DNA from: Gemmatimonadota bacterium
GTDB taxonomy: Bacteria; Gemmatimonadota; Gemmatimonadetes; Gemmatimonadales; Gemmatimonadaceae
NCBI GenBank assembly: GCA_014192065.1
Contig: BJHH01000003.1
Location: 109,835 to 173,834 of the forward strand
Direction of reading: 5' to 3'
Length of the DNA stretch: 64,000 nucleotides
This document shows, piece after piece, positions 16,333 to 56,359 of this stretch. The notes below the pieces were generated by a model that was given only the letters and a program-made list of their open reading frames with translations, did not search any database and was not told where the DNA came from. The position numbers were made by a program, and so were the translations under genes. Within the stretch, counting starts at the first letter, position 1. Every line of letters starts with the position of its first letter.

Positions 16333-16418
16333 AGTCGTTAACTCTCCTGAGACCTGTAAAATAACCGCCCGCGCTTCCCTTTGGGACCCTCGGAAGATCC
16401 GCGGACGCCGTGATCAAG

Positions 16419-16492
<74 letters not shown>

Positions 16493-51586: not shown

Positions 51587-52414
51587 CTATCGGATCGGTA
51601 GGTATCCGGTCAGCTCGAACGTACCGCGCGGCGCCCCGACCCCACCCCGCAGCCTCAGCGTCACGAACGCGTCGAGCATTGAGAGCACATGATTGACCGC
51701 CACCGCAGCGATGTAGTGCCTCGCCTCGCGACTGGCGTCATTTCCGCGCCGAATGATCTGACGATACTGATCCCACTCCAACTGGGCATTGCGCCAAGTC
51801 CAGCGGTATTCCGGAGTCACGGCATGCGTGGCATAGAAGGCCATGGCCGCGCGGTAGGGCGCGGACGCGCGATCGGGTTCGATATTCGGGTTGGGCCATT
51901 GCGACAGCTGCCTGGCTTTGAGCCAGATCGCACCATTGAAGGTCGACGTGTCGATTTCTGGCGAGAACGGGCCGGTTCCTGGCGTGCGATTGTACACACC
52001 ACTCTCGAGGTGCTTCTCCATCGCCTCGTAGTAGTCCCAAGTTCCTAGGGCCTCGTTGCCTGGCACAAACGCGCGCGCGATGTCCCGTGCGAGGGCCTGG
52101 TAACGCGAACGTTCTCGAATAAACGTCGCCTTGCGGCTCATGTACCCCGCGAGCGCATACGCCTCGACAGCGAGATATGGCACGAACCGGTCCTGCCCGA
52201 GCAGGATCTGCCCGTAACCTGGAATCACCCCGGACGCCAACGGAACCCACCACGCAGAATCACGCACCGGAATCCGAAGGCCTGCCAGCGAAGGAACCGT
52301 TGCCGACTTGCCACGGTCGACGGACACCCCGACGGTGACCGCGGACTGGGCACGGACCGAACCGGGAGCGATCATGATCGCGATCGCGAGCACGAGAGAT
52401 CGCACGGGATTCAT
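51587..52414 (-). CDS. hypothetical envelope protein, DUF5683-like
   Basis: A 275-residue protein with a signal peptide (VLAIAIMIAPGSVRAQ), then SLLPGAGQ-type hydrophobic segment (VPLASGVIPGYGQILLGQDR), then a mostly soluble region with many Arg/Tyr/Trp residues, ending VAVNHVLSMLDAFVTLRL. The glycine-containing hairpin near residues 58-75 and the NHxxSxxDAFVxxRL motif are shared with the gene at 54587, so the two are probably distant paralogues. No enzymatic motif seen. It overlaps the PorV-like gene by 4 bases. Function unknown; an envelope or outer-membrane accessory role is a guess from the signal peptide and neighbour. Confidence 0.6.
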   Translation of the reverse strand: MNPVRSLVLAIAIMIAPGSVRAQSAVTVGVSVDRGKSATVPSLAGLRIPVRDSAWWVPLASGVIPGYGQILLGQDRFVPYLAVEAYALAGYMSRKATFIRERSRYQALARDIARAFVPGNEALGTWDYYEAMEKHLESGVYNRTPGTGPFSPEIDTSTFNGAIWLKARQLSQWPNPNIEPDRASAPYRAAMAFYATHAVTPEYRWTWRNAQLEWDQYRQIIRRGNDASREARHYIAAVAVNHVLSMLDAFVTLRLRGGVGAPRGTFELTGYLPIR

Positions 52415-53631: not shown

Positions 53632-54513
53632 TCAACGATCGTCAGATGGAGAATAGCCAAGGCGGCGGAGCGCAGCGGCATCGCGTCGCCAGTTGGGAAG
53701 CACCTTCACCCAGAGTTCGAGGAAGACCTGCCCGCCAACGAGGGGTTCAATCTTGGCCCGCGACCGTTTGCCGATCTCGCGGATCCGCTCCCCACCGGTG
53801 CCGATGACGATACGTTTTTGACTGTCCCGCTCGACGTACAGCACCGCACGAATGTACACCGGCGCCTTGGCCTCGCGGAACTCCTCGACCACGCACGCGA
53901 TGGCATGCGGGATTTCGTCATCCAGCTCCTCGAGCGCAGTTTCGCGCACCATTTCGGCGACGAAGAAGCGAAGGTTTTGCGTACTGACGTCGTCGGCGGG
54001 ATACAGAAAGGCGCCCTCGGGAACCATCGCACGTAGTCTGGCGATCAACCGGTCGACACCATCTCCGGTTTTGCCAGAAATCAGAGAGGCGTCGGGATTG
54101 TCCTGTGCGAGGTACCCGCGAGCGGCCTCGGAAAGTTCGTCGATCTTATTCAGCGCGCTCATGACTGGCGTACGGGGCGCATCCCCTTCCCATGCAGCCT
54201 CGGCCCAGAGCGAATGCGGTGGCCCAGCGCCGGCATCCCACAGGTGGACGATCACGTCAGCGTCAATCAGCGCCCGCCTTGAAGCGGCACGCATGGTGTG
54301 GTGTAGCGCGTCGGCTGGCTCTATCAGCCCTGGCGTATCCAGAAAGACCAACTGCGAGGTCTCATCACTCAGAATTCCGACCACTCGCCCGCGAGTGGAT
54401 TGCGCCTTCGGGCTGGTGAGCGCAAGCCGCTCGCCGATGAGGCGATTTAACAGCGTCGACTTTCCGGCGTTCGGCCGGCCAGCGATCGTGACTATTCCGC
54501 ATCGAGTCATCAT
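53632..54513 (-). CDS. era: GTPase Era
   Basis: Binds the 3' end of 16S rRNA and helps 30S assembly (293 aa). G1 GRPNAGKSTLLNRLIGE, DTPG, NKID, and a C-terminal KH domain (VIGTGGERIREIGKRSRAKIE-type) ending with KVLPNWRRDAAALRRLG. Two adjacent ATGs at the start (54513, 54510). The gap to the upstream membrane gene is 73 bases. Confidence 0.96.
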   Translation of the reverse strand: MMTRCGIVTIAGRPNAGKSTLLNRLIGERLALTSPKAQSTRGRVVGILSDETSQLVFLDTPGLIEPADALHHTMRAASRRALIDADVIVHLWDAGAGPPHSLWAEAAWEGDAPRTPVMSALNKIDELSEAARGYLAQDNPDASLISGKTGDGVDRLIARLRAMVPEGAFLYPADDVSTQNLRFFVAEMVRETALEELDDEIPHAIACVVEEFREAKAPVYIRAVLYVERDSQKRIVIGTGGERIREIGKRSRAKIEPLVGGQVFLELWVKVLPNWRRDAAALRRLGYSPSDDR

Positions 54514-54586: not shown

Positions 54587-55150
54587 TCAGCGAATGCCGA
54601 TCTGCGCGGAGAGGCCGAATCCGCCACGGATCGGCGCTGCCCGCAGCTTCACGTGCTGGGGCAGGTCCCACAGCTGGGCCGCGACGAACGCCTCGACGCC
54701 GGCGATGAGGTGATTGAACACCAGTACCGCGGTCCAGTCTTCCACCTGCAGCCGACGCGCGCGGACGAGCGCGTCGCTGTAGTACGGCGGGTCCAGCGTC
54801 GAGACGCCAGTCGCCTGATCGATCTTGTAGATGCGCGGGAGCGAGTCGCGGCGGTACGCACGGGCGAGGCGCAGATCATCACCAGTCCGATGCACGAGCG
54901 CAATCGCGAATGCTTCCATCAGGAAAAATCCTGCCCCGACGAACGGACGATCGAGCTTGGCCTGCCCGAGACCGGGGAGTACGAGCGAATAGAGGAACGC
55001 CTGCCGTGGCGTAATCGGCGCACGCCCGGTGTCAGCTGGAGTGATCCCCACGCGGGCGCCGGCGGACCGCACCTGGGCGCCGAGTGGATCTGCGCACAGC
55101 TGCGACCAGAGCCCGCCCAGCAGAGAGAGAGCGGCAAGGCGCGTGGCCAG
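54587..55150 (-). CDS. DUF5683-like membrane protein, start uncertain
   Basis: A roughly 187-residue envelope protein. It has a signal peptide ending LGAQ, then RQAFLYSLVLPGLGQAKLDRP and VGAGFFLMEAFAIALVHRTG (two hydrophobic segments), a soluble part, and the motif NHLIAGVEAFVAAQLWDLP shared in pattern with the product of 51587-52414. No ATG, GTG or TTG lies in frame between the tRNA-Sec 3' end (55193) and the signal peptide; a CTG at 55150 gives the expected N terminus. An in-frame TTG (55225) and ATG (55246) lie within the tRNA gene. Function unknown. Confidence 0.6.
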   Translation of the reverse strand: MATRLAALSLLGGLWSQLCADPLGAQVRSAGARVGITPADTGRAPITPRQAFLYSLVLPGLGQAKLDRPFVGAGFFLMEAFAIALVHRTGDDLRLARAYRRDSLPRIYKIDQATGVSTLDPPYYSDALVRARRLQVEDWTAVLVFNHLIAGVEAFVAAQLWDLPQHVKLRAAPIRGGFGLSAQIGIR

Positions 55151-55192
55151 GCGGCGGCGTGGCGCCCTGAAGCCCGCGTCGACCGCTCGCCG

Positions 55193-55289
55193 TGGCGGGA
55201 GCGCATGGGAATCGAACCCACCCAACCCGACGATGTCAGGTCGCATCAGTTTTGAAGACTGAGGGAGCCACCAGGCTCCATGCACTCCC
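55193..55289 (-). tRNA. selC: tRNA-Sec (anticodon UCA)
   Basis: Read 55289 to 55193 it folds as a selenocysteine tRNA: 8-bp acceptor stem GGGAGTGC/GCGCTCCC (one G-U), 6-bp D stem GGAGCC/GGCTCC with a 4-base TGGT loop, anticodon stem TCAGT/ACTGA with loop CTTCAAA (anticodon TCA), a long variable arm (9-bp stem with two wobbles and a 3-base loop), T arm GTGGG/CCCAT with loop TTCGATT, discriminator G and an encoded CCA. These are the specific marks of tRNA-Sec rather than tRNA-Ser. It starts 29 bases after the selD stop. Confidence 0.97.
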
Positions 55290-55318: not shown

Positions 55319-56359
55319 CTACGCGACCACGATGGCGCGCTCGCCGGCCGCGATCGCCTCGCCAATCACGACGGCGTCTGGCACGCCCGCCATAAACGCC
55401 GCTACGCGATCGGCGCGCAACGCGACGAGCAGTCCGCCGGACGTTTGAGGATCCACGAGCACCGCGCGCATCTCATCAGTGGTACGACCCCAATCCACGA
55501 GTGGTTCCAGATAGGAGATGTTTCGTGCCGCGCCACCGGTCAGCGCGCCCTGTTCGATCATCGCGCGAGTCCCCGGGAGAAGTGGTACGGCCGCGTGACG
55601 AATCCGCATGGTTACGTGACTGGCACGCGCGACGTGCGATGCGTGACCCAGCAACCCGAAACCGGTGACGTCGGTCGCGCAGGTGGCGCCAGCCGCCAAC
55701 GCCGCACGGCTCGCCGTGCGGTTCAGCGTGGTCATTGACGCCGTCAGCATGGCGCGTTCGGCCTCGGGCAAGAGTCCGCGTTTTGCCGCCGTCGAGAGAA
55801 TCCCGGTACCGATCGCCTTCGTGAGCACGAAGACGTCGCCCACCTTTGCGGAGGCGTTGGACAGGATGCGCAACGGGTGCACTGTGCCGGTGACCGACAG
55901 TCCGTACTTGAGCTCTTCGTCGGTGATGGTGTGCCCACCGACCAGGTGTGCGTCGGCCGCGTGGACCATGTCCTGCCCGCCGCGGAGTACCTCAGAGAGC
56001 ACCTCGAGGGGAAGCTTTCCGACCGGAAAACCCACGATGTTCATGGCGGTGAGCGCTTCGCCGCCCATCGCGAAGACATCAGAGAGCGCGTTCGTCGCCG
56101 CGACGCGGCCAAAATCGTACGGATCGTCCACGATTGGCGCGAAGAAATCGAGCGTCTGCACAAGGGCGATCTCGGGCGAGATCTGAAAAATCCCGGCATC
56201 GTCGAACGTCTCGTGCCCGACAAGCAGGCGCGGATCGCTGAGCCGTTTGAGCGACTTAAGCGCCCGCGTGAGGTCGGCCGGCCCCATCTTGGCGGCGCAG
56301 CCGGCACAGCGGGCCCAGTCGGTAAGACGGATGGCGGCGTCTACAGTGGAGGGAGGCAT
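55319..56359 (-). CDS. selD: selenide, water dikinase
   Basis: Makes selenophosphate, the selenium donor for Sec-tRNA and selenouridine (346 aa). The catalytic region is RCAGCAAKMGPADL: cysteine (Cys21) at the position that is Sec or Cys in the family, with the lysine three residues on. It also has DFFAPIVDDPYDFGRVAATNA and GGHTITDEELKYGLSVTG. It ends 29 bases before tRNA-Sec, likely in one transcript, so this organism is set up to make selenoproteins even though none is visible here. Confidence 0.96.
   Translation of the reverse strand: MPPSTVDAAIRLTDWARCAGCAAKMGPADLTRALKSLKRLSDPRLLVGHETFDDAGIFQISPEIALVQTLDFFAPIVDDPYDFGRVAATNALSDVFAMGGEALTAMNIVGFPVGKLPLEVLSEVLRGGQDMVHAADAHLVGGHTITDEELKYGLSVTGTVHPLRILSNASAKVGDVFVLTKAIGTGILSTAAKRGLLPEAERAMLTASMTTLNRTASRAALAAGATCATDVTGFGLLGHASHVARASHVTMRIRHAAVPLLPGTRAMIEQGALTGGAARNISYLEPLVDWGRTTDEMRAVLVDPQTSGGLLVALRADRVAAFMAGVPDAVVIGEAIAAGERAIVVA

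Follow-up and report, generated by a model that had tools for sequence, protein, structure and literature searches.

Within the 64,000-nucleotide stretch of DNA analysed here (the window), selD, the gene for selenocysteine tRNA (tRNA-Sec, selC) and a gene for a DUF5683-like membrane protein probably form one operon, in which translation of the membrane protein would start inside the unprocessed tRNA. Many relatives of this bacterium appear to share the arrangement. We strongly infer, from sequence comparison, that the tRNA and the protein gene overlap. The evidence covers the overlap itself, the absence of other starts, the locking of the reading frame to the tRNA and coding selection downstream of it.

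Organization of the selD locus

The genes, parts and candidate start codons are collected in Table 1. The window comes from one draft genome of 16 contigs, in which selA (530.8 bits) and selB (C3:242521-244359, 364.7 bits) are also present; the gene overlapped by tRNA-Sec is the DUF5683-like one and not selB. Given its RF01852 score and the presence of selA, selB and selD, the tRNA-Sec should be functional. The frame that ends at the DUF5683-like stop codon is open back to 55306, an offset of -114 from the tRNA end. The protein is called DUF5683-like because its match stays below the PF18935 gathering score of 26.7, as do those of all four relatives tested (15.9-19.9 bits). Its signal peptide was judged by hydropathy and an AQ-type motif, which we take to be the cleavage site; all such calls are predictions.

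Between the selD stop codon and the tRNA lie 29 nt in the window and about 7 nt in two other genera (g5 and g7), so that a single transcript is likely. The original prediction had considered an mRNA beginning within the tRNA; co-transcription with selD is simpler and makes such a 5′ end unnecessary.

Table 1. Features of the window and candidate start codons of the DUF5683-like gene
Feature	Position	Strand	Evidence or remark
selD, selenide water dikinase	55319..56359	(-)	NCBIfam TIGR00476, 380.4 bits (cut-off 125)
tRNA-Sec (selC), anticodon TCA, CCA encoded	55193..55289	(-)	ARAGORN; Rfam RF01852, 82.6 bits (gathering score 47)
tRNA-Sec, proposed second role as 5′ coding part of the next gene	55193..55289	(-)
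DUF5683-like membrane-protein ORF	54587..55285	(-)	PF18935, 23.5 bits; from the first in-frame canonical start in the tRNA
Candidate start GTG	55283..55285	(-)	nt 5-7 of the tRNA
Candidate start ATG	55244..55246	(-)	past the anticodon arm
Candidate start TTG	55223..55225	(-)	ahead of the T arm
CTG	55148..55150	(-)	42 nt past the tRNA; not conserved
Hydrophobic core of predicted signal peptide, LAALSLLGG	55112..55138	(-)	hydropathy
GTG	55070..55072	(-)	first canonical in-frame start past the tRNA (+120); beyond the cleavage motif
era-like GTPase gene, downstream	53632..54513	(-)	ORF with ordinary ATG; MMR_HSR1 and KH_2 domains
Second, weaker DUF5683-like protein, about 2 kb downstream	51587-52414	(-)	E 0.051; ordinary ATG and signal peptide
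tRNA-Arg, the only other tRNA in the window	16418-16492		an ORF with an ordinary ATG follows 85 nt on

Start codons available to the DUF5683-like gene

From the 3′ end of tRNA-Sec (55193) to the predicted cleavage site, the window holds no in-frame ATG, GTG or TTG, which confirms the central claim of the original prediction; the next canonical codon is GTG 55072, directly behind the AQ of the predicted signal peptide. Inside the tRNA, the two starts named earlier, ATG 55246 and TTG 55225, are indeed in frame, and a third, GTG 55285, had been overlooked. At the codon position of ATG 55246, all displayed frame-0 loci without another start carry ATG or TTG. The three in-tRNA starts of the window have no SD-like sequence, a feature that selD and era there also lack, and SD scores were rejected as a means of choosing among them.

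CTG 55150, proposed earlier as an alternative start, exists as claimed. Under such a reading, with a non-canonical or leaderless start, processing at the CCA end would leave a short-leader mRNA translated from CTG 55150 or another near-cognate codon past the tRNA, which we regard as unlikely. The codon would give a 26-residue signal peptide, has the best SD-like score among the upstream candidates of the window (-2.8), and ATG, GTG or TTG follows shortly past the tRNA in 51 of the 76 tRNA-adjacent loci described below (count by rule, from which L026 and L132 are to be deducted). As a general explanation, however, CTG fails, since an in-frame CTG, ATT, ATC, ATA or ACG is absent from the 60 nt next to the tRNA in three loci (L025, L138 and L148), and no near-cognate start position is conserved among relatives.

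Survey of orthologous loci

The protein was found in 56 of 61 genomes by a first search and in 162 of 179 genomes of the family by a second. We examined 149 orthologous loci of this Gemmatimonadota family, 30 from the first search and 119 from the second, with 13 of the 162 matching genomes not taken. ARAGORN places a same-strand tRNA-Sec immediately upstream, inside the stretch retrieved, in 76 of them. A locus was scored as lacking a start when no canonical codon separates the end of the tRNA from the best hydrophobic window; by this rule 24 loci lack a start, one (L015) is borderline, 22 have GTG or TTG only and 29 have ATG. Two more (L026 and L132), for which the rule had picked a later hydrophobic patch, were reclassified by eye, so that 26 of the 76 have no start ahead of the signal-peptide core, including four soft cases (L002, L014, L016 and L134) in which a start codon falls among the core's first residues.

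Ten of the 76 loci reach their first canonical start past the tRNA only behind the cleavage motif: at +120 (L001), +289 (L025), +80 (L026), +121 (L126), +146 (L129), +173 (L130), +80 (L132), +98 (L135), +98 (L136) and +149 (L137).

As controls we used the 73 loci in whose fetched stretch no tRNA-Sec occurs. A canonical start precedes the core in 69 of the 72 that could be scored (ATG in 54), and of the three exceptions two (L052 and L153) run off the contig end and one (L150) has no signal peptide in view. The start gap exceeds chance: further species show it too, some of them in a different reading frame, whereas 69 of the 72 tRNA-less orthologues are normal. The comparison of the junction across related genomes, suggested at the outset, supports a start inside the tRNA: in several relatives, conserved coding sequence precedes the first canonical codon past the tRNA, and in the window's genus the frame is locked to the tRNA.

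This recurrence also means that the gap is neither a one-off nor a sequencing slip. An assembly or sequencing error concealing an ordinary start, which had been named as one way in which the original prediction might fail, could be suspected in a single draft genome with a (CT)5 run in its signal-peptide region; we consider it very improbable, because 25 other loci from independent assemblies show the same gap (by rule, plus the two classified by eye).

Within the window's genus, 7 of the 12 tRNA-adjacent loci have a start between the tRNA and the core (six GTG or TTG only, one ATG), so that an in-tRNA start is not needed in those; L002, the nearest relative (72%), has a GTG at +18. Outside the family, eight tRNA-adjacent loci of the same order were inspected by eye: one (L155) lacks any start ahead of the cleavage motif, four (L154, L157, L158 and L161) have starts only in the hydrophobic or cleavage part, and three (L156, L159 and L160) have a usable start. 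The openness of the frame from the in-tRNA start was considered as stand-alone evidence and set aside as weak, with 27 of 27 loci open (the 26 and L015) against the 18.7 that random frames would give.

Frame lock and coding selection

If translation started after the tRNA, insertions and deletions between the two would scramble the frame of the gene relative to the tRNA. In four genera that show the start gap (g1, g5, g7 and g18) this frame is identical in 130 of 130 within-genus pairs, with one locus (L119) omitted, down to 40-50% core identity, compared with 39 of 86 pairs in the other genera. On a core-protein tree, the other genera show 13 frame changes over 9.7 length units. Genus g1 shows none over 3.51 length units (4.7 expected, P 0.009), and g5 and g7 without L119 show none over 4.33 (5.8 expected, P 0.003), or one against 6.2 expected when L119 is included; these rates are approximate, and the groups were chosen with the data already in view. 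A start past the tRNA leaves this lock unexplained. It suggests that even those g1 members with a GTG or TTG past the tRNA use, or until lately used, a start within it.

The codons just past the cleavage motif indicate that the frame is translated: over codons 19-29 past the tRNA in nine gapless g5 loci, differences per site are 0.04, 0.08 and 0.52 at the first, second and third positions. The signal-peptide codons of g5 lend weak support (0.56, 0.35 and 0.58). A codon-level test on the signal peptide alone was weak (pN/pS 0.75, a value matched or undercut by 9 of 300 column shuffles, while reading with a shift of 1 gives 0.74).

These data bear on the idea that the protein begins past the apparent signal peptide, at GTG 55072 in the window, and that the upstream open frame is untranslated. 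The codon does sit immediately behind the cleavage motif, yet the core motif of the family precedes the first post-tRNA start in two loci (L025 and L130) and contains it in two more (L129 and L137). Moreover, the second-position conservation and strong coding selection in g5 extend upstream of any start, and in 69 of 72 tRNA-less loci an ordinary signal peptide is present together with a start of its own. We give this reading hardly any credence.

Reading frames through the tRNA

All three frames of the tRNA are used, in different lineages. The window's genus uses frame 0, with tRNA-encoded residues ending in ..GGFDSHALPP; residues that the tRNA would encode include GGFDSHALPPRR in the window and WVRFPHSPA in g5 and g7. 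In 11 of the 12 g5 loci and all four g7 loci, hydrophobic codons start 2-14 nt past the CCA end, so that the n-region (..GWVRFPHSPA) would be encoded by the tRNA in frame 2; a start past the tRNA would leave no room for it. The one g5 exception, L119, has its own ATG and stops in frame 2. The same arrangement of hydrophobic codons and n-region is seen in frame 1 in g18 (three of three loci; residues ..VGSIPTRSRH) and in L025.

Further variants were seen at the 5′ side. In L014, L015 and L016, and also L013, the 5′ half of tRNA-Sec is altered and the DUF5683 frame opens at ATG -75 (TGA ATG in L014), which confines the start to -75 or later. In L025, an ATG three bases past the selD stop is in frame with the DUF5683 gene and would place the whole tRNA inside the downstream ORF. 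A conserved TTGCGATCG ahead of the tRNA in g5 and g7 was considered as an upstream start or a -35 box and rejected, as it belongs to the C-terminal coding part of selD, read in another frame.

Broken tRNA-gene pairs

The pairing of tRNA-Sec with this gene has been broken repeatedly within the order. Two genomes, G005 (L163) and G030 (L168), have 3-8 kb between an intact tRNA-Sec and the DUF5683-like gene. In both, sequence matching the 3′ end of the tRNA at 26/32 positions is left before the gene, in its open frame; the gap looks like an insertion at the tRNA 3′ end. In L162, L164, L165 and L169-L173, and in G015 (L166 and L167), the gene is preceded by tRNA-Sec at a distance of about 1-25 kb. 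Among the gaps of L162, L164, L165 and L169-L173, those searched contain no remnant of the tRNA.

Proposed mechanism

We propose that selD, tRNA-Sec and the DUF5683-like gene share one compact transcript. Ribosomes finishing selD, or loading on the G-rich 5′ strand of the tRNA, would initiate in unfolded tRNA sequence at a canonical codon, presumably ATG 55246, TTG 55225 or GTG 55285 in the window. The 3′ half of the tRNA would then be read through, giving the first residues ahead of or within the signal-peptide n-region, and translation would continue through the hydrophobic core to the mature part of the protein. Once folded, a tRNA is poorly suited to initiation, which counts against such a start. 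All 15 g5 and g7 loci carry a GTG at -79 for which the 5′ strand of the tRNA itself offers strong SD-like complementarity (-9.7 kcal/mol, long spacing), and the ATG at -89 of L025 has an SD-like score of -7.3.

Folding of tRNA-Sec and cleavage at its 3′ end would presumably strip the downstream RNA of its start, and with a start inside the tRNA, one RNA molecule could thus become either mature tRNA-Sec or translatable mRNA but not both. Regulation by tRNA processing, with protein output linked to tRNA maturation, is a plausible hypothesis.

The overlap may also be real but neutral, the start having drifted slowly into the tRNA under compaction, with enough unprocessed transcript and no regulation. 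This variant of our preferred explanation, rather than its opposite, has in our estimate not quite an even chance. It fits the at least 10 state changes on the tree and the loss of the pairing in many relatives (73 of the 149 loci lack tRNA-Sec in the stretch), while the frame lock over deep divergence in g1 and in g5 and g7 speaks for long retention and is silent on regulation.

Relation to known overlapping tRNA genes and implications

In Mukai 2021 (PMC8124441), tRNA-Sec nested in the selB ORF is described in Alphaproteobacteria, with partial overlaps in Gammaproteobacteria and Nitrospirae, and processing and protein expression are proposed as alternatives. That case and the present locus share a same-strand overlap of tRNA-Sec with a protein gene, tRNA-encoded residues, conservation in a clade with loss in some members, and in-frame tRNA remnants in some, those of G005 and G030 resembling the selC remnants in selB. 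There, the tRNA adds to the C-terminal end of selB, and the following ORF begins at the end of the tRNA region. The present locus has an intact same-strand tRNA-Sec overlapping a protein ORF and no C-terminal extension of selB; instead, the tRNA would hold the start codon and N-terminal residues of a predicted signal-peptide DUF5683-like protein, behind selD, in Gemmatimonadota and in a frame that differs by lineage. Animal mitochondria (Armadillidium) have large overlaps of tRNA and protein genes, as cited in PMC8124441, likewise with tRNA sequence within protein-coding mRNA and a proposed competition by tRNA processing; they are organelles under extreme compaction, whereas here the start codon would lie in tRNA-Sec of a free-living bacterium. 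tRNA-Sec nested in selB appears to be the nearest precedent, the new element being a tRNA at the N-terminus of the protein rather than the C-terminus. The open-access literature yielded no earlier description of a start within tRNA-Sec in Gemmatimonadota and no relevant work on DUF5683.

Gene callers that bar overlap between CDS and tRNA may mis-start or drop such genes. The arrangement makes initiation by ribosomes inside an unprocessed tRNA, and tRNA processing as a gene switch, open to experiment. More tentatively, and in our estimate less probably than not, it may act as a conserved RNA fate switch, in which each selD-tRNA-Sec-DUF5683 transcript, with the start codon and signal-peptide n-region inside the tRNA, would yield either mature tRNA-Sec or mRNA, so that the membrane protein, and possibly era, would be inversely tied to tRNA-Sec maturation or selenocysteine demand. 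If the in-tRNA start is true, it would represent a widespread bacterial case of a protein whose initiation codon and N-terminus come from a tRNA gene, with each of the three frames used in one lineage or another.
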